A stretch of 20,226 nucleotides of DNA from a virus. The position numbers were made by a program, and so were the translations under genes. The notes under the pieces are model-generated. The model did not search any database, was not told the DNA's origin, and saw nothing but the letters and a program-made list of their open reading frames with translations. Below, one piece after another: positions 2,835 to 18,742 of the stretch (positions are counted from its first letter, which is position 1; every line of letters begins with the position of its first letter). The stretch covers positions 1 through 20,226 of IMG/VR virus record IMGVR_UViG_3300021599_003026. One strand, 5' to 3'.

Positions 2835-3653
2835 ATGAGCAAGAAAAAGCAGAAGCGAGAACCAAACTTTGTGAAGACAACGGCCCCCCAGCCGGAGCAG
2901 ATCTCACTGATTTCGGTTACGCCGATCATCGACGGCAAGTTGGATCACGGTTATACCCACTCGCTGCTTAACATCCAGCGGGCCTGCTTGCAGGTTGGGA
3001 TTAACTTCAACTGGGGCTTTGTGGTTGGCAGCTCAATGCTGCCTGCAGCTCGAAATCGTTGCGTTGCAAAATTTATGGAAGAGTCCACCGCAACGCACAT
3101 GTTGATGCTTGACGCAGACATCACTGTCGCCTGGGAAGACATCATGTTTGCCATTGCGGCAGACAAAGAGGTTGTTGCCCTGCCCTGCATCAAGCGACAA
3201 ATCCGTTGGGACCGGGCGGTGGAGCTTGTAAGACAGCGCCCGGAAGTTCCGGCGGAGGCCATTGAGGCCGTTCTTGGCAGGCCAAACTTTATCTTAGACA
3301 ATTCGTCGCCGCCGCCTACTCAGCAAGAAGCAGCCCTTGGCTTGATGAGCGCCACACATGCCGGTACGGGGTGTATGGTCGTCCAAAGAAGCGCCTTTGA
3401 ACGCTTCCAGAAGGCCTACCCGGACCGATGGTATCTTGAGCAATTAGATGAAAAAGAGGTAAGAACCGTTGAGTATTTCCGCTACGGTCGGAGAGATAAT
3501 TCTTTTATTGGAGAAGACTACAATTTCTGCGATGAGTTCCGTGCAATTGGCGGTAAGGTATGGGTGAAGGTCGACGGGCACACTCGTCACAGCACCTCTC
3601 TGGGGCTGCAATACGACCTAGCTGCGCTACATTCGCTTGAAGGAGATAAGTAA
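2835..3653 (+). CDS. GT-A-fold glycosyltransferase-like protein (paralogue 1)
   Basis: 272 residues from the ATG at 2835 after GAAGGAG. The frame is open for 477 nt further upstream, but that part has no coding character and contains the promoter. After a basic N-terminus (MSKKKQKREP), residues 23-60 form the first Rossmann-like half (SVTPIIDGKLDHGY). G-S-S-M-L-P-A-A-R-N-R (65-75) is followed by M-L-D-A-D-I (91-96), the DxD motif that binds metal and nucleotide-sugar. A-L-P-C-I-K-R-Q at 115-122 and G-E-D-Y-N-F-C at 226-232, with a late His (T-R-H, 250-252), fit the acceptor-side acid and third metal ligand. Soluble; no membrane segment. It is clearly homologous to the gene at 3879. The acceptor is unknown: DNA, virion protein or host glycan are all possible. 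Confidence 0.8.
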   Translation: MSKKKQKREPNFVKTTAPQPEQISLISVTPIIDGKLDHGYTHSLLNIQRACLQVGINFNWGFVVGSSMLPAARNRCVAKFMEESTATHMLMLDADITVAWEDIMFAIAADKEVVALPCIKRQIRWDRAVELVRQRPEVPAEAIEAVLGRPNFILDNSSPPPTQQEAALGLMSATHAGTGCMVVQRSAFERFQKAYPDRWYLEQLDEKEVRTVEYFRYGRRDNSFIGEDYNFCDEFRAIGGKVWVKVDGHTRHSTSLGLQYDLAALHSLEGDK

Positions 3654-3654
3654 C

Positions 3655-3879
3655 ATGGATCTTGCGGCAGTATTTCTTGGATTTGTTGTTGGCTTCTTGT
3701 TCAGCGGGCTTCTGCTTGCTGGTGGTATGGCCATGAAAGTTGCAGAGGGAGAGCGCCGTGCCTGGGGAGAGGCCATTGGTGTTTTTATTAACCTGCAGCG
3801 AGAGCATGCAAAGTGGCACGAAGACGAGCGCCAACAGAAGATGCCCGACTTGACTGGGCCAAAGCGCAAGGCCCATTGA
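3655..3879 (+). CDS. Small single-pass membrane protein
   Basis: 74 residues from the ATG at 3655, one nt after the previous stop, with GGAG inside the end of the glycosyltransferase gene as its ribosome binding site. Residues 4-26 form one hydrophobic segment with small-residue patterning (AAVFLGFVVGFLFSGLLLAG). The rest is a charged, helical cytoplasmic or periplasmic tail (GERRAWGEAI ... REHAKWHEDERQQ). Its stop overlaps the next ATG (TGATG). Sitting between two paralogous glycosyltransferases and co-translated with both, it may tether them to the membrane, but this is inference; the family is not recognised. An upstream in-frame TTG at 3637 was rejected because the ribosome binding site lies inside that extension. 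Confidence 0.7.
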   Translation: MDLAAVFLGFVVGFLFSGLLLAGGMAMKVAEGERRAWGEAIGVFINLQREHAKWHEDERQQKMPDLTGPKRKAH

Positions 3880-4694
3880 TGCCCGAGCCAAGGATTCAGT
3901 CAGCTCCAACCAAGAGGTTCCCAAAACTTTGGGTGTCAACGCCAACGCTTGATGGAAAAATTACCATTGACTATATGCGCGCGTACGACAACCTAAAAGC
4001 CGCGCTGTTTCAGCAAAAAATTAATACTAGAGTTGATTTTCTCCCAGGCAACTCTGTCCTTCCGCAGGCAAGAAACTATTTGGTAGACCGGTTCATGCAG
4101 TCTGATGCCGATTGGATTCTCATGGTCGACTCGGACATTAGCTACGGAGCGGCCGACATCCTGGCGTGCTTGCCCCACCTATCAGACGCAATTATTGGCT
4201 TGCCCTGCTGCAAGAAGTTCCCAAAATGGGAGCGGGTTGCCGAAACCCTTCGGTCAAACCCAGAATACGACCCAGAAGATATTCCGGCGATCATGTCTGA
4301 CGCAAATTTTGCCATTCCAGAAAGCGGCATTCTTCGACCAAACGACTACGGGCTGGCCGATGTTGAGTGGATTGGAACCGGCGCCATGCTTACCTCGAGA
4401 GAAGCGCTTATGAAAATTGTTGAATTCAACCCAACTGATAAAACTGAAGCAAATGCAAAAGTTGTACATCAGTTTTTTAAATACGAGTCTTTTGAGGGAA
4501 AACTGCGCGGCGCCGACGTGACTATGTATTACGGAGAAGACGTCTCGTTTTGCCGACTTGCAAGGCGTGCCGGTGTTTCAGTTAAGGCGAAGATTGACGC
4601 CAGAACCGGACACGCAGGGTTTATTGATTACCGATTTGACGCCGCTGCGGTTAATCGGCTGAAGAATATTCCGGCTCCGAAGCAAGAGGATTAA
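3879..4694 (+). CDS. GT-A-fold glycosyltransferase-like protein (paralogue 2)
   Basis: 271 residues from the ATG at 3879, which overlaps the stop of the preceding gene. It aligns by eye along its whole length with the protein at 2835: VSTPTLDGKITIDY for SVTPIIDGKLDHGY, P-G-N-S-V-L-P-Q-A-R-N-Y for G-S-S-M-L-P-A-A-R-N-R, M-V-D-S-D-I (82-87) for M-L-D-A-D-I, G-L-P-C-C-K-K at 107-113, W-I-G-T-G-A-M for a G-T-G-C-M equivalent, and Y-G-E-D-V-S-F-C at 218-225 followed by a His at 245. These are the DxD motif and the C-terminal acidic/His ligands of GT-A enzymes. The pair is a tandem duplication split by a small membrane-protein gene. It overlaps the convergent gene at 4651-5121 by 44 nt. Confidence 0.8.
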   Translation: MPEPRIQSAPTKRFPKLWVSTPTLDGKITIDYMRAYDNLKAALFQQKINTRVDFLPGNSVLPQARNYLVDRFMQSDADWILMVDSDISYGAADILACLPHLSDAIIGLPCCKKFPKWERVAETLRSNPEYDPEDIPAIMSDANFAIPESGILRPNDYGLADVEWIGTGAMLTSREALMKIVEFNPTDKTEANAKVVHQFFKYESFEGKLRGADVTMYYGEDVSFCRLARRAGVSVKAKIDARTGHAGFIDYRFDAAAVNRLKNIPAPKQED

Positions 4695-5121
4695 AGCGAG
4701 ACTCCTCTAGCGGGTAGGCGTACATTAGCCAGTTAGAGCGGATCTCCCTGCCAGGAATTTCAGCCCCTTCCAGCTTTGGAACGTAGGCAAGGACATGCTC
4801 CCGATTGCTAAATTGGCGCAAGTCGATGTGGGCAGTGTCGGGCGTAGAGCTGATAACGCAATCAAACTTTGGCAAGATCTTTGCCGCAGACCAATCCAGC
4901 ATTATGCTGCTGGCAACATCTCCAAAATTAAGCGCCACAACGTATGGGTCCGGGAGCGTAACTGTTGTAAAAGACTCTTCCGCTCGGATACCGAGCTTGT
5001 GGAGGATAAATGAGACGCGCTGCTTGCTGATGCTGTGCATCCTTCCGATTTCGTTGGCCGTGTAGCCATCCAAGAACAATTGCGCGATTTCTTCATTGCG
5101 TTCCTTTTTTCTAGACTTCAC
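4651..5121 (-). CDS. HTH protein with unknown C-terminal domain
   Basis: 156 residues from a GTG at 5121 that overlaps the end of the preceding small gene by 11 nt; no strong ribosome binding site, so translation is probably coupled. Residues 8-43 form a homeodomain-like or resolvase-like helix-turn-helix (RNEEIAQLFLDGYTANEIG, then R-M-H-S-I-S-K-Q-R-V-S-F-I-L). The remaining part (about 50-156) has alternating strands (VVALNFGDVASSIMLDWSAA, KFDCVISSTPDTAHIDLRQF) and is not recognised. It is the last gene of the three-gene minus-strand operon behind the structured leader, and overlaps the end of the second glycosyltransferase. A role as a phage transcription regulator is likely but not shown. 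Confidence 0.7.
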   Translation of the reverse strand: MKSRKKERNEEIAQLFLDGYTANEIGRMHSISKQRVSFILHKLGIRAEESFTTVTLPDPYVVALNFGDVASSIMLDWSAAKILPKFDCVISSTPDTAHIDLRQFSNREHVLAYVPKLEGAEIPGREIRSNWLMYAYPLEESRFNPLASEPEYSSAD

Positions 5122-5284
5122 GGCACAGCTCGCAAAGCATTACATAAGTTTCGTGATCATAGCAAGCAACAAACGTCTCGTCGCATGCCTCACAGATTCG
5201 CTCGGCAAGGGCAACTCCGCAACTATCGCCACACTCTTCTTCTGCAGACTCATCGTCCGGGTACGGTGTGACTAGCTGGCTCAT
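5111..5284 (-). CDS. Tiny Cys-rich zinc-finger-like protein
   Basis: 57 residues read directly from the minus strand: ATG at 5284 overlaps the stop of the preceding gene as ATGA, and the frame ends with TAG at 5111. After an acidic N-terminus (PYPDDESAEEE) come Cys 18 and 22, a C-E-A-C pair at 31-34, Cys 41 with His 44, and C-E-L-C at 51-54. Four paired Cys clusters in 57 residues strongly suggest one or two bound zinc ions. No family is recognised. It is the middle gene of a tightly overlapping operon with another CxxC/HxxC protein and an HTH protein, consistent with a regulatory or anti-host role. Confidence 0.7.
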   Translation of the reverse strand: MSQLVTPYPDDESAEEECGDSCGVALAERICEACDETFVACYDHETYVMLCELCREV

Positions 5285-5505
5285 CGCTTCTTACCCGCAT
5301 CGGCAGAGATGCTTGGAGCACACTTCTTATGGTACTTGCGAAAAATTGAGCGTCGAGCTGCGCCCTCCGGAAACCAGATGTGCTTCCAGGTGGTTACTTC
5401 GTTTGACATTATCCCATTGCTGCATGAATAGCAGACAAGGTCGGTTAGATGGGCAGGCTTTGCCGCCGCCTTAAGTACAAGCTTTGCGTTTGCTTTTCCG
5501 GCCAT
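5281..5505 (-). CDS. Small treble-clef-like zinc-finger protein
   Basis: 74 residues from the ATG at 5505, preceded on the minus strand by GGAGG at four nt. An upstream in-frame start at 5667 was rejected because it would run through the structured leader. The protein begins with an Ala/Lys-rich helix (MAGKANAKLVLKAAAK), then V-C-Y-S-C at 24-28, a Trp-containing strand (W-K-H-I-W-F-P) and H-K-K-C at 59-62. CxxC followed by HxxC suggests a single zinc site of treble-clef type, perhaps nucleic-acid binding. It is the first gene after the folded leader and overlaps the next gene by ATGA. Confidence 0.7.
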   Translation of the reverse strand: MAGKANAKLVLKAAAKPAHLTDLVCYSCSNGIMSNEVTTWKHIWFPEGAARRSIFRKYHKKCAPSISADAGKKR

Positions 5506-5523
5506 GTTGCCTCCATATTTCGG

Positions 5524-5629
5524 CGGTGGGGCCGGCATGAAATAAACCATGCCGACCCGTCCAACGCGGGTCACCCCACCGGCCCCTGGGAAAACGCCCA
5601 GAGACGCTACGCCCCGGTTGGAAGGGGGC
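5524..5629 (-). ncRNA. Candidate structured 5' leader RNA (three-way junction plus two hairpins)
   Basis: In the leader of the minus-strand operon. An 8-bp stem CGGTGGGG/CCCCACCG (5524-5531 with 5574-5581) encloses two perfect 6-bp hairpins: GGCATG/CATGCC (5534-5539, 5548-5553; 8-nt loop) and GACCCG/CGGGTC (5554-5559, 5567-5572; 7-nt loop). These leave a nearly gap-free three-way junction. On its 5' side in the transcript are two more hairpins: CTGGG/CCCAG (5586-5590, 5597-5601) and GCCCC/GGGGC (5611-5615, 5625-5629). An alternative 8-bp pairing, CCGGCCCC with GGGGCCGG (5579-5586 and 5528-5535), excludes the first stem, so two states are possible. No known riboswitch core was recognised. Confidence 0.5.
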
Positions 5630-5637
5630 AGTAACAC

Positions 5638-5667
5638 AAGATAGTGTTGATTTGACCCCGCGCGCAA
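5638..5667 (-). promoter_or_regulatory. Putative promoter for the minus-strand zinc-finger/HTH operon
   Basis: On the minus strand TTGCGC (5667-5662), 18-nt spacer, TATCTT (5643-5638). Transcription would start near 5631, just before the first leader hairpin, giving a leader of about 125 nt. The plus-strand promoter for the gene at 5708 lies back to back with it. Confidence 0.45.
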
Positions 5668-5671
5668 TCCT

Positions 5672-5700
5672 GTGAAAATCTACTCATGGTGTGGTATAGT
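5672..5700 (+). promoter_or_regulatory. Extended -10 promoter for a leaderless mRNA
   Basis: TGTGG followed by TATAGT (5695-5700). Seventeen nt upstream is GTGAAA (5672-5677), four of six matches to a -35 box. Only CCATCCT separates the -10 box from the ATG at 5708, so transcription should start at or within one nt of the start codon, and no Shine-Dalgarno sequence is possible. Confidence 0.65.
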
Positions 5701-5707
5701 CCATCCT

Positions 5708-5929
5708 ATGAACAACACGCCACCACCTAGCTCCAAGGCTGCGGCTATCTGGTATCTTTGGGCCTCGTCATTTAGCATGGCGATGGCTTATGCTCCGCGC
5801 TGGTCAAACGATATGGACCCGTACTCGGTGCATTTTCCAAACAATCTGCAAGGAGAAGATTTTGTGCGACTAAATGAAGAAGAAGCCCAGTGGCTGATCA
5901 CCATGAAGACGGCGGCAAAAAATGGCTAA
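5708..5929 (+). CDS. Small hypothetical protein on a predicted leaderless mRNA
   Basis: 73 residues from the ATG at 5708. It starts with a Pro/Ser-rich tip (MNNTPPPSSK), then a short aromatic hydrophobic stretch (AAAIWYLWASSFSMAMAY) that may associate with a membrane or form a buried helix, then an acidic C-terminal half (EDFVRLNEEEAQWLI). No family is recognised. The start is set by the promoter: the -10 box ends seven nt before the ATG. An in-frame upstream start at 5672 lies within the promoter and was rejected. It overlaps the next gene by 8 nt and heads the long plus-strand run that carries the glycosyltransferases and epimerase. Confidence 0.65.
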   Translation: MNNTPPPSSKAAAIWYLWASSFSMAMAYAPRWSNDMDPYSVHFPNNLQGEDFVRLNEEEAQWLITMKTAAKNG

Positions 5930-6578
5930 GACGCTGCTGATTGTTCCAACTCGACACCGGCCAACAGCATGCGACGCGCTTCTTAAGCAGTTTCAAGAAA
6001 CATCGGAAGACTGCGACATCTTGTTTGGAATTGACGAAGACGATTTTTCTCCATACTCGGATGAAGTTATGGCAAAGGCATCAGTCAACCCAAGGCTGCG
6101 CATGTGCGGGACGCTTAATCTCTTGGCGGCAAAGCACGCAAACGATTACGAGTACCTTGCGTTCATGGGGGATGATCACCGCCCAATGACAAAGGGGTGG
6201 GACACAGAGCTTGCCAGGTCAATTGGGGACCGCCCGGGCGTGGCGTACGGAAACGATTTGTTGCAACGCGAAAACCTGCCAACTGCCGTAATGATGTCTG
6301 CGTCTATTGTCCGAGCCATTGGGTACATGGCCCCGCCGACGCTTATCCACTTGTATATGGACAATTTTTGGAAGGCCCTTGGGCAAGAACTTGGAAACCT
6401 CGTATATCGTGGAGACATCATCATTGAGCACCTACATCCTATTGCCGGTAAAGCGGATAACGATGCCGGATACATTGAAGTAAATAGCGCTGAGGTTTAC
6501 ACGAAAGACGCCGTTGCCTTTGACCGATACCTTCGGGACCAGTTTGCGCAAGATTTGAGAAAAATCCTAAGCAAGTGA
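5922..6578 (+). CDS. GT-A-like glycosyltransferase (third)
   Basis: 218 residues; the ATG lies 8 nt inside the end of the previous gene. It begins T-L-L-I-V-P-T-R-H-R-P (4-14), the first strand and nucleotide-binding loop of GT2-type enzymes. After D-I-L-F-G-I-D-E-D-D and the helix L-N-L-L-A-A-K-H comes Y-L-A-F-M-G-D-D-H-R-P (78-88), where the DD replaces the DxD metal motif. A central P-T-A-V-M-M-S-A-S-I-V segment and a late H-L-H-P (positions in the 150s to 180s) match acceptor and metal-binding parts seen in phage glycosyltransferase-like proteins. It is shorter than paralogues 1 and 2 and not closely similar to them. The donor and acceptor are unknown. The stop overlaps the next GTG (GTGA). 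Confidence 0.75.
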   Translation: MAKTLLIVPTRHRPTACDALLKQFQETSEDCDILFGIDEDDFSPYSDEVMAKASVNPRLRMCGTLNLLAAKHANDYEYLAFMGDDHRPMTKGWDTELARSIGDRPGVAYGNDLLQRENLPTAVMMSASIVRAIGYMAPPTLIHLYMDNFWKALGQELGNLVYRGDIIIEHLHPIAGKADNDAGYIEVNSAEVYTKDAVAFDRYLRDQFAQDLRKILSK

Positions 6579-7351
6579 AAAGCCTTATTTCATATGTTCT
6601 GTACGGCAGCAGCAGGAGATACGTTGTTGGCGCGTTCATTAATGTTGTTCTTGCAAAAAAGATTTACCCAGAATTCACGGTGCGAATCTATATTGGCAAT
6701 GGTGTTCCGGCCTGGGTCGTTCAAGAGCTTAAAAAATTCCCTAACGTAGAAATTAAAAACGCCCCAGCTGGCAATGAATGGTTTTCCAGGGCGTGGAGAT
6801 TCCTTGCGTTCTCTGACCGCGACGTTGATATTGTGCTGATTCGAGACCTTGATGCCAGACTGACCGTTAGGGAGCGAAGGGCATACGACGAATGGTACGA
6901 GAGCGGACTAGACTTTCATGTGATGAAGGACCACGAAACCGGGCACAGGGAATGGGCGCTAAGCGCAGGGATGTGGGGCGGATACGCCGACAAGCTGCGC
7001 AACATGGCGACCATGATGGGGCTGTATATGCAGGAAACAAACAATAAAACCCCGCTTTATACGCACGCAAAATCTTTTGCCTATGTTTCTGATCAAAGAT
7101 TTCTTGCTGAAAGGGTGTGGGTTCGGGTTGAGAAGAGCTGCATGATTCATGACAGTTTTTTTAACACTAAAGTTCCAGCCCCAAGCATCACCAAGAAGTT
7201 TCCTATCGAGCTAGAGAACCCCGCAAACCACGTTGGGGCCGCCCTGGACGAGAACGACTATTTTGTTTTCTGGGAAGACGAGAGCCTATCCGTCAAAAAT
7301 GGCGGCATTGGCAAGTTTGAATATGACCTTGAGCTGTTGGAGGCGTACTAG
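6575..7351 (+). CDS. Glycosyltransferase-like protein (fourth)
   Basis: 258 residues from a GTG at 6575 overlapping the previous stop. Residues 1-60 form an alternating strand/helix half (LISYVLYGSS ... FTVRIYIGNGVPAWVVQEL). V-L-I-R-D-L-D-A-R-L (87-96) contains a D-x-D like those of sugar transferases that act on capsule or cell-surface glycans, followed by E-R-R-A-Y-D-E-W. Later H-R-E-W and I-H-D-S-F-F segments may supply acceptor-site residues. The protein is soluble. It is a different subfamily from the other three, so this locus encodes at least three kinds of transferase. It ends with TAG overlapping the GTG of the epimerase gene, indicating coupled expression of sugar-making and sugar-transferring enzymes. 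Confidence 0.7.
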   Translation: MKSLISYVLYGSSRRYVVGAFINVVLAKKIYPEFTVRIYIGNGVPAWVVQELKKFPNVEIKNAPAGNEWFSRAWRFLAFSDRDVDIVLIRDLDARLTVRERRAYDEWYESGLDFHVMKDHETGHREWALSAGMWGGYADKLRNMATMMGLYMQETNNKTPLYTHAKSFAYVSDQRFLAERVWVRVEKSCMIHDSFFNTKVPAPSITKKFPIELENPANHVGAALDENDYFVFWEDESLSVKNGGIGKFEYDLELLEAY

Positions 7352-8226
7352 TGAATATCCTGATTACCGGGCACCGTGGATTTGTGGGCCGGCACTTTCA
7401 GAAGTTCTATGAAAGCCAGGGGCACACCATCCTGGGCGTTGACATCGTTGACTCAATGGACGTCCGAAAGTTCTTTGCCTTGGCAAATCATACAAAGTTT
7501 GACCTGGTAATTCATCTGGCAGCCGTTGTCGGTGGGCGTGCAAAGATCGAAGGCAATCCCCTTTCGGTGGCGGTTGACCTTTCAATCGATGCGGAGATGT
7601 GGCAGTGGGCAATCCGGACTAAGCAGCCACGAGTTGTTTACTTCTCTTCGTCTGCGGCGTATCCGGTGGAGCTGCAAACAAAGCATTCCCATAAGAAGCT
7701 TACAGAGGCAGACATCAACCTTAGCAACATCCGCAACCCTGACCTCACGTACGGGTGGTCAAAGCTCACCGGAGAATACTTGGCGCAGTTTGCTGAGGCG
7801 GAGGGGGTGCGCACGCATGTGTTCCGACCATTCTCCGGCTATGGCGAAGACCAGGCGCTTGACTATCCGTTCCCGTCGTTTATCGAGCGTGGCCGCAATC
7901 GTGAAAATCCATTTGTTATCTGGGGAGACGGAACGCAGACCCGCGACTTTGTGCACATTAGCGACGTGGTTGGGTGCGTTGATGCGGCGGTCCAGCAAGA
8001 CTACCGCCAGCCACTCAACATTGGCACAGGACATGCCACGAGCTTCCGGGAGCTGGGCGAGATGGTGGCCAAAGCAGAAGGCTACTTCCCAAAGTTCCAA
8101 TTTCTAACAGACAAGCCAGAGGGCGTAAACTGGCGAGTTGCAGACATTTCATCTATGCTGCAGGTCTACACGCCAAAGATTGACCTTGAGACTGGAATTA
8201 AGCGCGCACTAAGCGCAAGGGGGTAA
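7351..8226 (+). CDS. NAD(P)-dependent sugar-nucleotide epimerase/dehydratase (extended SDR)
   Basis: 291 residues from a GTG that overlaps the preceding stop by one nt. Residues 7-13 (G-H-R-G-F-V-G) are the extended-SDR dinucleotide-binding glycine motif, followed by D31 at the end of strand 2 and V-I-H-L-A-A at 53-58. The catalytic set is complete: the Ser cluster S-S-S-A-A-Y (99-104) and Y-G-W-S-K (Tyr 134, Lys 138). The C-terminal third has F-R-P-F-S-G-Y-G and V-I-W-G-D-G-T-Q-T-R-D-F, typical of NDP-sugar epimerases and dehydratases. The family converts nucleotide-sugars in the cytoplasm. Next to glycosyltransferases it probably supplies their donor, but the exact product cannot be read from the sequence. 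Confidence 0.9.
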   Translation: MNILITGHRGFVGRHFQKFYESQGHTILGVDIVDSMDVRKFFALANHTKFDLVIHLAAVVGGRAKIEGNPLSVAVDLSIDAEMWQWAIRTKQPRVVYFSSSAAYPVELQTKHSHKKLTEADINLSNIRNPDLTYGWSKLTGEYLAQFAEAEGVRTHVFRPFSGYGEDQALDYPFPSFIERGRNRENPFVIWGDGTQTRDFVHISDVVGCVDAAVQQDYRQPLNIGTGHATSFRELGEMVAKAEGYFPKFQFLTDKPEGVNWRVADISSMLQVYTPKIDLETGIKRALSARG

Positions 8227-8227
8227 G

Positions 8228-8638
8228 GTGCAACCAAAAGACAAGGTGACCTATCTAGATTTAACAGTAGTTCCAGACTTGTTTGTGTCTGGCAGTTTTG
8301 AGGCGGAGTTTCAAAAGATTTACTCAGAAGCGTTCTCACTTCTTGTTGCAAAACAGCGCCGGTACGGAAACTCAAACATTGAGCAGCTTGGACTGCACGG
8401 CGTGATTGGCCGGATTTCTTTTGACAAAGTTTCTCGGGCGCTAAAGTTTATGAATGGCCGCGTTGTAAACGGCAAGGTTGAGCTTGACCAAATGGACGAG
8501 AGCACCGAGGAGTCCCTTGAAGATACGCTGCTTGACATTGCTAACTACGCGTTGATTGCGGTGGCCCTTCGTCGTGGGACTTGGGGAAAGCCGCTTGAAG
8601 AAGACCTTGTCCAACTAAGCACTGCGGACTCAGAATAG
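8228..8638 (+). CDS. DUF1599/Nmad1-like (nucleotide-modification-associated) protein
   Basis: 136 residues; ATG or GTG region at 8228 directly after the epimerase stop. Key segments are K-Q-R-R-Y-G-N-S-N-I (42-51), G-L-H-G-V-I-G-R-I-S-F-D-K-V-S-R (55-70), and E-S-L-E-D-T-L-L-D-I-A-N-Y-A-L-I (95-110). This is the all-helical pattern of small phage proteins annotated as nucleotide modification-associated domain 1 (DUF1599) or MazG-like pyrophosphohydrolases, with acidic residues E98, D99, D103 and N106 positioned like metal ligands. Such proteins are frequent near DNA-base-modification genes. In this setting it may act on a modified or canonical nucleotide. The assignment to Nmad1 rather than MazG is moderate. 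Confidence 0.7.
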   Translation: MQPKDKVTYLDLTVVPDLFVSGSFEAEFQKIYSEAFSLLVAKQRRYGNSNIEQLGLHGVIGRISFDKVSRALKFMNGRVVNGKVELDQMDESTEESLEDTLLDIANYALIAVALRRGTWGKPLEEDLVQLSTADSE

Positions 8639-10275: not shown

Positions 10276-11238
10276 ATGTTTAACCTTATTGTTGCATTGG
10301 CCCTCATTATTGTCCCCTGCCCTCCCGCACCAGAATATTTCGCGCAAGCAGAAGACGACTGGGCCCGTGACCGCATCCTTGAGCCAGACGATTTTTGGCG
10401 CGGAGGATACGTCCGCGACGGGTTTGTTTGGGACGGCGCCGGCAAGGGCGCAGGCATTACCGTTTACGTGGTAGATACCGGGATTGCCGACAACGGATAC
10501 ATTGAGAATCTTGCTCCGGGATTCTACAGCTTTGGCAAGAACACGCTTGATTGTGGCAAGGGCCACGGAACCTCTGTGGCGTCGCTTATCGCCGGGGCCG
10601 GATATGGCGTTGCTGAGGCCGCAACGATTGTTCCGGTTCGCGTGCTTAACTGCAGCGGCGGCGGAACAAGGAAGGCAATCTTGGCCGGACTTAGCTGGAT
10701 TGCAAATAACGCCAGCCCAGACACCTCTATTGTAAACATTAGCTTTGGCGGAAAGGCCGACAAGGCGGTAGACAAGGCGGTGGCGGCAATTAGTGACCTT
10801 GGCATCCCGGTAATCATCGCGGCGGGGAACTACGGGGCAAATGCCGCCAAGTACTCACCATCTCGAACGGGCTGCGATGACGGGCTGATGGTTGCGGTGG
10901 CCGCAAGCACGTGGCTGGACCTTCCGTGGACAGGATCAAACTACGGAGATTGCGTCTGGCTTTATGCTCCTGGTGCCAACGTGCTGGCCATGGGACCAAC
11001 TGACGAGAAGCTGGTAACCGGAACTTCGTTTTCAGCTCCGTATGTTTCTGGGGCTATTGCAGCTTATGCAGCAGAGAACGGCGTCACTACCGAAGAAGCT
11101 TTGAGCATGGTAATGGAGGCGACTTCTAACGCCATGACCATTGCCCGGAGGCTTAACACCACCAAGGCTTTGTTGCAAATGTTCTCGGGAGATGAGTTTG
11201 CCCCGGATCTTTGCACCGATGATTGGTGGATGTGCTAG
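10276..11238 (+). CDS. Secreted subtilisin-like serine protease (family S8)
   Basis: 320 residues from the ATG at 10276. A short signal-like N-terminus (MFNLIVALALIIVPC) precedes the protease. The triad is complete: Asp 67 in V-V-D-T-G, His 97 in G-H-G-T-S-V-A-S and Ser 251 in G-T-S-F-S-A-P-Y-V-S-G, with the oxyanion Asn 185 in A-A-G-N-Y-G. N-I-S-F-G-G (154-159) forms the substrate cleft edge. Cys 93, 126, 200 and 226 could form disulfides, as in exported proteases. No I9-type propeptide is present between signal and catalytic domain, only about 40 residues. The likely place of action is outside the membrane. Prohead maturation is less likely because of the signal and Cys content. Its stop overlaps the convergent terminase stop. 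Confidence 0.9.
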   Translation: MFNLIVALALIIVPCPPAPEYFAQAEDDWARDRILEPDDFWRGGYVRDGFVWDGAGKGAGITVYVVDTGIADNGYIENLAPGFYSFGKNTLDCGKGHGTSVASLIAGAGYGVAEAATIVPVRVLNCSGGGTRKAILAGLSWIANNASPDTSIVNISFGGKADKAVDKAVAAISDLGIPVIIAAGNYGANAAKYSPSRTGCDDGLMVAVAASTWLDLPWTGSNYGDCVWLYAPGANVLAMGPTDEKLVTGTSFSAPYVSGAIAAYAAENGVTTEEALSMVMEATSNAMTIARRLNTTKALLQMFSGDEFAPDLCTDDWWMC

Positions 11239-13803: not shown

Positions 13804-14151
13804 ATGGCAAGTTCAACGTATGACATCACGGCTGAGCAGGGCGCAAACTACGCAGCTACTCTTACGTACCGCGATAGCGCCAACACAATTATCAATCTAA
13901 CCGGGTACTCGGCCAGGATGCAGGTTCGAAAGACGATTGGGTCAACAACCCCATACTTGTCGCTTACGCAAGCATCGGGGATTACCCTTGGCGGAGCTGC
14001 GGGCACAGTTGCCATTGCTATCTCTGCGGCGACGCTTGCGGCTGTTCCGGCGGGGAACTATGTCTATGATCTTGAGCTTATCTCTGGAGCTGGGGCTGTT
14101 ATTAGGCTGATCTCCGGGGACTTTGTTGTCACCGGAGAAGTCACACGATGA
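13804..14151 (+). CDS. Small virion/baseplate-associated Ig-like protein
   Basis: 115 residues; ATG after AGGA. It shows a common phage structural pattern: T-A-E-Q-G-A-N-Y near the N-terminus, I-N-L-T-G-Y-S-A-R-M-Q-V-R-K (30-43), a G-I-T-L-G segment, and Y-V-Y-D-L-E-L-I-S-G-A-G-A-V-I-R-L with S-G-D-F-V-V-T-G-E-V-T-R at the end. The arrangement of about eight beta strands and the final E-V-T-R are typical of small proteins encoded with tail fibres, often compared with the BppU-type N-terminal domain. It is probably a baseplate or fibre-attachment protein. Its stop overlaps the next start (ATGA), coupling it to the collagen-like fibre. Confidence 0.75.
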   Translation: MASSTYDITAEQGANYAATLTYRDSANTIINLTGYSARMQVRKTIGSTTPYLSLTQASGITLGGAAGTVAIAISAATLAAVPAGNYVYDLELISGAGAVIRLISGDFVVTGEVTR

Positions 14152-14600
14152 GCCCGGATGTAAATATTGTTGATATCAACCTAACAGTTACCGAAGAAGC
14201 AGATAACTCGGTAACGGTATCGCAGGCCAACAACTCTATTACGGCACCACAAACAACTAATAGCGTCACAGTTGGGACCCTTGGTCTGCAGGGCCCGCCA
14301 GGAAGCACTGGGGCAACCGGCCCTGCTGGCGCAACCGGAGAGCAAGGCCCCCAAGGTCCACAGGGGGCAACCGGAGCGCAAGGCGCCCAAGGCACTGGGG
14401 CCTCGCATACCACGTATACGCACAACCAGAACTCTGCTTCTGCCACCTGGAACGTCACGCACAACCTCAACTGCTTCCCGTCCGTCATGGTTGTAGATTC
14501 AGCGGGTAGTGTCGTGTACGGAAACATTGAGTATCTTGATGCAAACAGCCTGCGGCTAACCTTTGTTGCCTCTTTTGGCGGCAAAGCATACCTAAACTAA
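14148..14600 (+). CDS. Collagen-like tail-fibre protein
   Basis: 150 residues from an ATG in an ATGA overlap. Residues 1-45 are Thr/Val/Asn-rich beta (VTEEADNSVTVSQANNSI). Residues 46-82 are twelve Gly-X-Y triplets (G-L-Q-G-P-P-G-S-T, G-P-Q-G-P-Q), a collagen-like triple helix. Then comes a beta tip domain (TYTHNQNSASATWNVTHNL, then V-M-V-V-D-S-A-G-S-V-V-Y-G). The protein should trimerise and extend from the tail. The tip contains V-T-H-N-L and a V-x-V-x-D core that also closes the longer fibre encoded next, so the two share an end module. It probably contributes to host attachment. Confidence 0.85.
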   Translation: MSPDVNIVDINLTVTEEADNSVTVSQANNSITAPQTTNSVTVGTLGLQGPPGSTGATGPAGATGEQGPQGPQGATGAQGAQGTGASHTTYTHNQNSASATWNVTHNLNCFPSVMVVDSAGSVVYGNIEYLDANSLRLTFVASFGGKAYLN

Positions 14601-14609
14601 GGGGGCAAC

Positions 14610-16091
14610 GTGAAATTCCTAACAAACCTTGATCTCCAGAAAAATGAGCTGCAGAACGCGGCAATTCAGAATTTGGCGACCGATCCGGCCTCGCCGGTTC
14701 AGGGTCAGATCTACTACAACACTGCCTCTGACGCGATTAAGGTCTATGACGGAGCAGCGTGGGTAACGCTTGCTACCGGCGGCGGCACCGTCACGTCAGT
14801 TAGCGCCTCTAGCCCGCTTTCGTCAACCGGCGGGAACACGCCAACCATCAGCATTCAGGACGGCACAACCTCGCAGAAGGGCGCTGTCCAGCTAGAAAAC
14901 TCAACCTCCAGCACCTCAACAACCACTGCCGCTGTTCCTGCTTCCGTAAAGGCTGCGTATGACCTCGCTGCCGGCAAGGCCAGCACTTCAAACAAGCTTA
15001 GCGACTTTGCAGCTACCACATCAGCCGAGCTTGCCGGTGTTATCTCTGACGAGACGGGCACTGGCGCGCTGGTATTTGCTAATAGCCCAACGTTGGTGAC
15101 CCCAGCGCTTGGAACTCCGTCGAGCGCGACGCTTACAAACGCAACCGGACTGCCAATCAGCACCGGTGTTTCCGGTCTTGGAACTGGCGTTGCAACGTTC
15201 CTAGCCACGCCATCATCGGCCAACCTTATCAGTGCGGTAACCGACGAGACCGGAACGGGCGCCTTGGTATTTGCAAACACGCCAACACTTGTCACGCCAA
15301 ACATTGGCGCGGCAACCGGTACAAGCCTCGTGCTTTCTGGCGATCTGACGGTCAACGGGACCACAACCACCATCAACTCAACAACCCTATCGGTAGACGA
15401 CAAGAACATTGAGCTCGGCTCAGTCACCACGCCAAGCGATGCAACTGCTGACGGCGGCGGTATTACCCTTAAGGGCGCTACGGACAAGACAATTAACTGG
15501 GTTGACGCAACTGACGCCTGGACTCTTTCCGAGCATGTAAACATTGCTAACGGCAAGGTCTACAGAATCAATGGCACGGAGGTCCTTAGCGGCACTGCAC
15601 TTGGCTCAGGGGTTACCGGGTCAAGCCTAACCTCGGTTGGCACGATTGCCACCGGTGTGTGGAACGGCACCGCAATTGCCATTGCAAACGGCGGTACTGG
15701 CGCAACTGACGCCGGCGCTGCACGAACAGCCCTTGGCCTTGCAATCGGCACGAATGTCCAGGCCTACAACAGCACGCTTGCTGCGGTTGCTGGCGGAACC
15801 TACAGCGGTGATGACAGCATTACAACGGTCGGCACCATTGCGGCAGGAACTTGGCAGGGTACGGCTATCGCCTCGACCTACGGCGGAGCACTTCGCTACA
15901 ACACCAGCGCAACGTGGACGGCTGGCGAGGCCAAAACCGTTACCCACAACCTTGGCACCAAGGACGTAGTGGTATCCGTGTACGATTCGGGCGACGCTCA
16001 GGTGTTCTGTGATGTGGTAACGGCCACCACAAACACGCTGACGGTCACAATCAGCCTTGCAGGAACATACCGAGTCGTCGTTCTAGGGTAA
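14610..16091 (+). CDS. Long tail-fibre protein with internal repeats
   Basis: 493 residues from a GTG at 14610. The N-terminal motif (L-D-L-Q-K-N-E-L-Q-N-A, then D-P-A-S-P-V-Q-G-Q-I-Y-Y-N-T and Y-D-G-A-A-W-V-T) is widespread at the start of fibre proteins. A low-complexity Ser/Thr/Gly region follows, with two copies of a 19-residue unit (D-E-T-G-T-G-A-L-V-F-A-N, then P-T-L-V-T-P). Next come A-N-G-G-T-G-A-T-D-A-G-A-A-R-T-A-L-G-L and V-G-T-I-A-T-G-V-W-N-G-T, known fibre repeats. It ends in a V-T-H-N-L tip module like that of the collagen-like protein. It is expected to form a trimeric, beta-rich fibre that determines host range. Confidence 0.85.
   Translation: MKFLTNLDLQKNELQNAAIQNLATDPASPVQGQIYYNTASDAIKVYDGAAWVTLATGGGTVTSVSASSPLSSTGGNTPTISIQDGTTSQKGAVQLENSTSSTSTTTAAVPASVKAAYDLAAGKASTSNKLSDFAATTSAELAGVISDETGTGALVFANSPTLVTPALGTPSSATLTNATGLPISTGVSGLGTGVATFLATPSSANLISAVTDETGTGALVFANTPTLVTPNIGAATGTSLVLSGDLTVNGTTTTINSTTLSVDDKNIELGSVTTPSDATADGGGITLKGATDKTINWVDATDAWTLSEHVNIANGKVYRINGTEVLSGTALGSGVTGSSLTSVGTIATGVWNGTAIAIANGGTGATDAGAARTALGLAIGTNVQAYNSTLAAVAGGTYSGDDSITTVGTIAAGTWQGTAIASTYGGALRYNTSATWTAGEAKTVTHNLGTKDVVVSVYDSGDAQVFCDVVTATTNTLTVTISLAGTYRVVVLG
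15048..15299 (+). repeat. Duplicated 57-nt unit inside the tail-fibre gene
   Basis: Copies at 15048-15104 and 15243-15299 each encode 19 residues, identical except for one Ser/Thr change. Differences at the DNA level are mostly third-codon positions, indicating an older in-frame duplication kept by selection on the protein. Confidence 0.75.
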
Positions 16092-17102: not shown

Positions 17103-17288
17103 GTGACGACCAGCCAAGTTAATCAAATCCTAGATCGCCTTGAGAAAATTGAGGAAGAGCTTTCCGCTATGCGTGTTGAAATGGCGGAGACTCGTGGCGC
17201 CTATCGACTTGCAAAATTTGTTGTTGGCATCCTCGGCCTGACCGGCATTAGCAGCTTTGTTGCCTGGATGGCAGGGCAGGGCAAATGA
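17103..17288 (+). CDS. Holin-like coiled-coil membrane protein
   Basis: 61 residues from a GTG at 17103, preceded by GAGG. Residues 4-30 form an amphipathic coiled coil ([16 protein letters not shown]) and 37-57 one hydrophobic segment ([20 protein letters not shown]). This architecture (N-terminal coiled coil, one C-terminal membrane helix, about 60-80 residues) matches XhlA-type hemolysin/holin-like phage proteins. Its stop overlaps the ATG of the secreted surface-protein gene (ATGA). Lysis or membrane-anchoring accessory function is likely; which one is open. Confidence 0.65.
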
Positions 17289-18742
17289 ATACTAAGTTTG
17301 TCACTATCGCCGCAACGATTTGGCTTGTCCTTTCAACGTTGGTGTACAGCATTGTCGCTTCGCCAGCAGCCGGAGCCCAGAGCAACTATGTAGACGCAAC
17401 TAAGGACTTCTGGATTACCGTTCCAGAAGCTGGGTCACTGCACCTTTGGACCGACCTATGCGACGACACCACTGCTTCTTGGTGCCCGGGAACTGTCGAC
17501 TCCATGCTTTGGCTGTACGACAGCAACGGCACGCTTCTCGCTGCCAACGACGACTCGTACACAGATCACACTGGCGGCTACTCCCTGGCCTCGACCATTA
17601 TTATCACCGTAGACGCTGGCGAATATCGCGTGCGCGCCGGGGTGTGCTGCGGAGACCCAACGGCTGATCGCTTCTACGGCAATCACTACTACCTCATTAG
17701 CAACTTTGACGCCGAGCTTGCCCCTGGAACGCCGTCCGCAACGTGGACGCCAACGCCTGAGCCAACCCCCACGCCTACACCAACTCCTACCCCGACACCA
17801 GAGCCTACGCCCGTGCCAGACCCATACCTCAACGCCCCTACCGGCCTCATGGTCACCGTGTACACCGATGGCAACGTTTATTTGACATGGAATGCCCCGG
17901 AAGCAAGCGGTACCGACGTTGAGCGATACGGCGTGTTCTGGACTACAGGAAATCTATCGGGCTGGGGCGTTGCGTCTACGGAGACCAATATGGGCATTGC
18001 CAGTAACGTCTTTGTTATTACAGGCGGCGTTGATCAAACCTACACATTCTGGGTAAGGGCCGACAACGACACGCTGAGCGTGTACTCGCCTGCTTCAGAC
18101 ACGGTCTCCGTCTTTGTTCCGGCCCCGCCGCCACCGACCCCAAGCCCAACTCCTGAGCCAACGCCAACGCCGACCCCAGAGCCAACACCGACGCCGACAC
18201 CTACGCCGACACCAGAACCGCCAACACCAAGCCCCAGCGTGGCTCCTACCCCTACGCCAGAGCCCTCTGTGACGCCGACTCCGACGCCACAGCCAACACC
18301 TAGCCCGGAGGTAACAAATGAGCCGACACCGAACCCGACTGCCACACCCGAGCCGACGCCCGAGCCAACGGCCACCCCTACGGACTCTCCTTCCCCTTCT
18401 CCTGATCCCAGCCCTGTACCTACTGACACACCTGGACCAATTGATCCGGGCGCTGCAGTAGAGGCAGTCAGCGAGGCAATCGGGGAAGCTGCGGCGGCTA
18501 TTGCTAATACTATCGGTGATAGTGTAGAAAACGTTGGTAAAGCCGTCACTGCGGTTACCAATCTTGGCAAGGATCTCAGCCCAGAGGAGAAGAAGCAGGC
18601 TGCGCCTGTGGTTGTTGCTGCCGTAGTGGTAACGCAAGTGGCTCAGGCTGCGGCAGCAGCTGCGGCTGCGGCAAGTACATCAAGCTCAGGTGGGGGCGGC
18701 GCAAGTGGCTCGTCTTCCAGCGGAAGAAAAGGGAGGAGATAA
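17285..18742 (+). CDS. Secreted multidomain surface protein (PPC-like, FN3, Pro-Thr linkers, C-terminal anchor)
   Basis: 485 residues from the ATG at 17285. Signal peptide: hydrophobic 5-25, likely cleaved after A-G-A at 29-31. Residues 33-145 form a beta domain like PPC ([16 protein letters not shown], then [10 protein letters not shown]). A Pro-Thr-Glu linker follows (150-180), then an FN3 domain at about 184-278 ([23 protein letters not shown]). A second Pro-Thr-Glu linker spans about 280-388. The C-terminal part has an Ala/Val-rich helix (439-463), a Ser/Gly stretch and a basic end (R-K-G-R-R), similar to a membrane anchor. Cys 59, 67, 121 and 122 are outside the linkers. It is probably displayed on the host envelope. 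A virion fibre is the alternative, but the signal peptide argues against it. Confidence 0.75.

Follow-up and report, generated by a model that had tools for sequence, protein, structure and literature searches.

A recurring glycosyltransferase–SDR cassette of uncultured freshwater phages and its possible role in virion glycosylation

A 20.2-kb stretch of viral DNA (IMG/VR record IMGVR_UViG_3300021599_003026, positions 1 to 20,226, referred to as "the window" below) contains, at positions 2835–8638, a locus that encodes four glycosyltransferase-like proteins (GT_A, GT_B, GT_C, and GT_D), an extended short-chain dehydrogenase/reductase (SDR) predicted to act on nucleotide sugars, and a DUF1599-like protein. 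A preliminary description of this locus proposed a dedicated route for making and attaching a sugar, and our results support a dedicated locus for sugar remodelling and attachment. The same cassette, built on the GT_C and SDR genes and with its middle parts swapped, recurs in many uncultured freshwater phages. We put the odds that the cassette places a sugar on a virion protein, presumably of the tail, at about even (probability of approximately 0.5). Relatives of the window and other records are labelled with G-numbers (G001, G007, etc.) or L-numbers (L099, L179, L240, L279, and L321).

The cassette, its exchangeable slot, and its enzymes

GT_C and SDR genes were found together in phage contigs whose other neighbours differ widely. 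At 95% identity, the SDR sequences formed 57 lineages, 54 of them resolvable, and GT_C lies directly upstream of the SDR gene in 43 of the 54. The slot between the two genes is empty in 21 of these lineages, is occupied by GT_D in 18, and holds one or more S-adenosylmethionine (SAM) methyltransferase genes in four. The other 11 lineages lack GT_C, and seven of them have a methyltransferase gene directly upstream of the SDR gene. Parsimony on a quick SDR tree requires at least nine changes of the slot, some of them on weak forks. The methyltransferase family found in the cassette is also encoded ~10 kb upstream of GT_C in G001 and G007. Transferases accompanied by an O-methyltransferase-like domain occur in related cassettes and in Actinoplanes phage phiAsp2 (see below), and not in the window itself. 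In contig L321, genes for GT2, GT-B, GT_C, a methyltransferase, a 270-amino-acid protein, and SDR form a single six-gene run; the 270-amino-acid protein (positions 6192–7004 of that contig, between methyltransferase and SDR) has no Pfam match. No SDR relative above ~31% identity was seen among the matches listed for cultured phages, and no cultured-phage match to the cassette methyltransferase was found.

The gene order of the locus is kept in ~20 close relatives, a few of which lack GT_D, and synonymous change in the locus genes far exceeds amino acid change; these genes are therefore real. Nonsynonymous divergence (dN) was compared pairwise between the window and ten close relatives for 13 genes, synonymous sites being near or at saturation in most comparisons. 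The dN values were 0.02–0.06 for SDR, 0.04–0.10 for the large terminase, and 0.08–0.48 for the four transferases. Since none of the other genes among the 13 is as constrained as SDR, and the transferases are far less so, the sequence comparison suggests a fixed sugar-making step combined with changing transfer steps or targets. As a tentative extension, it is possible that a modular one-sugar cassette is common to unrelated actinophages: a nearly frozen SDR would fix the donor, the slot would be used to swap a transferase for SAM methyltransferases, and each phage would display a glycan of its own, in some cases O-methylated, on its tail fibres or on other proteins of the virion.

The SDR matches the Epimerase family PF01370 at 8.9e-34, and its TGxxGxxG and YxxxK motifs are invariant, so that the earlier assignment of a complete extended SDR holds. 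GDP-fucose synthase and GDP-mannose 3,5-epimerase have a catalytic Cys, which we take to lie in an SxxCxYP-like motif of these enzymes; all 13 aligned SDRs have Ala in its place. The score against the NCBIfam GDP-fucose synthase model was 84.8 (cut-off of 500), and identification of the SDR as a GDP-fucose synthase was rejected because the catalytic Cys is absent. The Asp–Glu pair of 4,6-dehydratases is also missing. Our best guess from these residues is that the SDR may be a C4 epimerase or reductase rather than a 3,5-epimerase or a 4,6-dehydratase.

The preliminary description had distinguished two paralogous GT-A proteins and two further transferases of other subfamilies, and both pairs were recovered. 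GT_A and GT_B are ~31% identical and each match phrog_1574; GT_B additionally gives a sub-threshold hit to Anp1 (9.8e-5) and matches a PHROG glycosyltransferase at 5.6e-7. GT_C matches PHROG glycosyltransferase 14945 at 1.1e-55. While sequence searches returned no family match for GT_D, its AlphaFold model (pLDDT of 87.9) has glycogenin, LgtC, and IspD among its best PDB matches, with a probability of 1.00 and a TM score of about 0.45; as modelled, GT_D, the transferase covered by structure prediction, has a fold of the GT-A (nucleotide-diphospho-sugar transferase) type. DxD-type motifs are present in all four proteins (DAD/DSD in GT_A/GT_B, GDD in GT_C, and RDxDAR in GT_D), each conserved within its own family. 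Profile–profile comparison of GT_C, GT_D, and GT_A/B revealed no links among them, and comparison of the transferase profiles with the sequences of solved structures gave no credible match.

The likely target of the sugar

For the donor sugar, the order of transfer, and the acceptor, we infer the following scheme. The SDR would alter one position of a nucleotide sugar that the host supplies, and GT_C would move the product onto an acceptor. GT_D, or a SAM methyltransferase in other lineages, would then extend or tailor the sugar, and the coupled pair GT_A and GT_B, both of which evolve fast, would add further sugars. The acceptor would most likely be a virion protein, probably one of the tail or tail fibres.

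The cassette often adjoins tail-fibre, baseplate, or lysin genes. In L279, genes for a GT-B, a GT-A-like protein (recognized by eye), a methyltransferase, and SDR lie between collagen-like/tail-fibre genes and baseplate genes (baseplate-J). In a second phage group, the cassette comes after tail genes, a CHAP lysin gene, and a DUF6378 gene; some members of this group encode WhiB, which indicates actinobacterial hosts. A prophage-like locus in the Nonomuraea basaltis contig L099 has GT_C, two methyltransferase genes, and SDR in a row after tail-like genes, and in cyanophage S-SRM01 a GT_D homologue lies inside a fucose-glycan island. The tail and lysis context, together with the failure to find base-modification genes (see below), makes virion glycosylation likelier than DNA glycosylation. 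Among the options raised in the preliminary description, genomic context favours the virion and, to a lesser degree, the host envelope.

Several observations weigh against a virion target. The tail genes of the window begin ~5.2 kb downstream of the run, beyond terminase genes of opposite orientation, and the acceptors listed in Table 1 are candidates only. The GT_C homologue of Streptomyces phage Annadreamy is surrounded by genes for DNA replication instead of tail genes. The products of the Che8 gp108–110 cluster, discussed below, have no significant profile match to GT_C, GT_D, or GT_A/B.

While infecting, the phage might instead use the cassette to alter a surface glycan of the host, perhaps as a block to superinfection or as an aid to lysis and release. 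The cassette of the second phage group directly follows the CHAP lysin gene, and a use of glycosyltransferases of this kind has been suggested for phages of freshwater actinobacteria (PMC10202952). However, the Gtr clusters of O-antigen (serotype) conversion have a membrane flippase and a polyprenol-linked transferase, and nothing resembling either was found in the window. In a hydropathy scan, neither the four transferases nor the SDR had a membrane segment, and the 74-amino-acid ORF (open reading frame) between GT_A and GT_B is the only one at this locus that looks membrane-anchored. We regard an envelope target as rather improbable.

Transfer of the sugar to a secreted protein encoded by the phage, such as the product of positions 17,285–18,742, or to a small molecule, appears unlikely. 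This product begins with a hydrophobic segment, has long PT-rich stretches, and is conserved among relatives, at 76% in G007; PT-rich stretches of such kind are O-mannosylated in actinobacteria. However, its gene lies away from the cassette, and other cassette lineages show only weak similarity segments to it. As a separate observation, the protein combines Pro/Thr-rich repeats with a glycine/serine-rich tail and is a possible glycan acceptor.

Glycosylated phage DNA was one of the options of the preliminary description; our results do not support it as a leading one. According to this explanation, the cassette would glycosylate phage DNA, in a T4-like manner or by TET-type hypermodification, to escape restriction. 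Genome protection by glycosylation has been proposed for freshwater actinophages (PMC10202952), close relatives of the window encode a cytosine-C5 methylase, and genes for DUF1599-like and ParB-like proteins lie nearby (the ParB-like assignment, ORF 272–823, is confirmed by strong matches to PHROG ParB families). Three relatives of 81–86 kb, G001, G007, and G009, share a single gene order in circularly permuted form, so that each is a near-complete genome. The search of the rest of the genome that had been called for was thus carried out through relatives: no match to thymidylate synthase, ThyX, TET/JBP, or 2OG-FeII_Oxy_3 was found in these three genomes and some 15 other records, nor was TET/JBP or thymidylate synthase found in eight further cassette-bearing contigs. 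The C5 methylase is encoded by G001, G007, G009, and G028, but the large cassette-bearing G006, G025, G026, and G027 lack it. T4 (AGT/BGT) and TET-linked systems share with the window phage-encoded glycosyltransferases, but here no hydroxymethylated-base pathway was found, and the window proteins had no Pfam match to T4-type DNA glucosyltransferases up to E = 1. As a side observation on G001, G007, and G009, the family matches listed for these genomes include no DNA polymerase.

The earlier Nmad1-like label of the DUF1599-like protein is weak (17.2 bits against the Pfam cut-off of 25, over only 24 profile positions). Its AlphaFold model was unusable (pLDDT of 49.5), a comparison with DUF6378 was suggestive only (probability of 28%, E of 6e-4), and a comparison with a single MazG sequence gave no link. 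Two contigs (26 and 31 kb, possibly fragments) carry the DUF1599-like gene but neither GT_C nor SDR. The gene is therefore not bound to the cassette; it is probably just a neighbour, and its product no member of the sugar pathway. In one of the two, L240 (5496–6333), a MazG pyrophosphohydrolase gene is directly followed by a DUF1599-like gene; GT_C and SDR were not found there. Because base-modification genes were not found, the C5 methylase is patchy, and the DUF1599-like gene occurs without the cassette, we consider DNA glycosylation quite unlikely.

Gene layout of the window

The gene positions and close spacing reported in the preliminary description agree with the ORF coordinates and junctions (Table 1). 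GT_C overlaps GT_D by 4 nt and GT_D overlaps SDR by 1 nt; SDR and the DUF1599-like gene are separated by 1 nt, and the latter overlaps the next ORF by 1 nt. GT_A and GT_B are coupled via the 74-amino-acid ORF, whose overlap with GT_B is 1 nt (stop/start TGATG). This trio is split from the GT_C run by minus-strand ORFs 4651–5121 and 5281–5667.

Table 1. Features of the locus and candidate acceptors, in window coordinates
Feature	Position	Strand	Remarks
GT_A, GT-A-like glycosyltransferase	2835..3653	+	phrog_1574; DAD (DxD type) and GED motifs; invariant C-terminal His
74-amino-acid ORF	3655..3879	+	One likely membrane segment (hydropathy scan); between GT_A and GT_B
GT_B, GT_A paralogue	3879..4694	+	phrog_1574; weak Anp1 match; DSD motif
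Small conserved ORF, no assigned function	5672..5929	+	Overlaps GT_C by 8 nt
GT_C, hallmark cassette glycosyltransferase	5922..6578	+	phrog_14945; invariant PTRxR, GDD, and EHxH motifs
GT_D, GT-A-fold transferase (by model) in exchangeable slot	6575..7351	+	RDxDAR motif; model pLDDT 87.9
SDR, extended, predicted nucleotide-sugar enzyme	7351..8226	+	Rossmann TGxxGFVG, YxxxK
DUF1599-like protein	8228..8638	+	Match under Pfam cut-off
Collagen-like (Gly-X-Y) tail-associated protein	14148..14600	+	Candidate acceptor
Tail-fibre protein	14610..16091	+	Phage_fiber_2; candidate acceptor

Two further genes of the window can be mentioned. ORF 897–1595 encodes a secreted-looking protein with a membrane segment that is conserved in relatives; its C-terminal stretch (ADYCSCHG...DLSPQVWAALG) resembles a double-psi beta-barrel/3D domain. 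ORF 10,276–11,238 encodes a subtilase-family (S8) protease with an N-terminal hydrophobic stretch and is conserved next to the terminase genes; its nearest NCBIfam model, mycosin, scored under cut-off.

Comparison with known systems

Virion glycosylation has been reported for mycobacteriophage Che8, with the gene cluster gp108–110 (Freeman et al. 2023, as cited in PMC12363180 and PMC11256854). Like the window, Che8 is an actinophage case of several glycosyltransferase genes with overlapping starts and stops. The window cassette differs from the Che8 cluster by its dedicated SDR and by the exchangeable slot between transferase and SDR. Che8 gp108 is a fusion of GT2 with Methyltransf_24, and in this respect resembles pas34 of phiAsp2, a fusion of a GT_C-family glycosyltransferase with Methyltransf_24. 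The N-terminal part of pas34 is a GT_C homologue (31% identity), and pas33–35 follow tail genes; in contrast to the window, the transferase is fused to the methyltransferase, and there is no SDR in the pas33–35 stretch examined. The pas34 gene (L179, 6001–7791) is annotated as "DNA methyltransferase", a name also given to PHROG 2675, and the note in the record reads putative O-methyltransferase. A DNA methyltransferase, which would favour DNA modification, was rejected for pas34, the domain being Methyltransf_24.

Streptomyces phages of the Stanwilliamsviridae type carry a closer GT_C homologue (~45% identity), likewise coupled to a second transferase. There, however, the second transferase is weakly GT25-like and is followed by a nucleotidyltransferase, with no adjacent SDR or GT_D homologue.

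Glycosyltransferases of freshwater actinophages have been described before, with DNA protection or a change of the cell wall as the suggested roles (PMC10202952). The recurring cassette, the exchange of its slot, and the failure to find base-modification genes point instead to virion glycosylation. Cultured relatives, including phiAsp2, the Streptomyces phages, and the Nonomuraea strain with its prophage-like locus, make virion glycosylation by this cassette testable.

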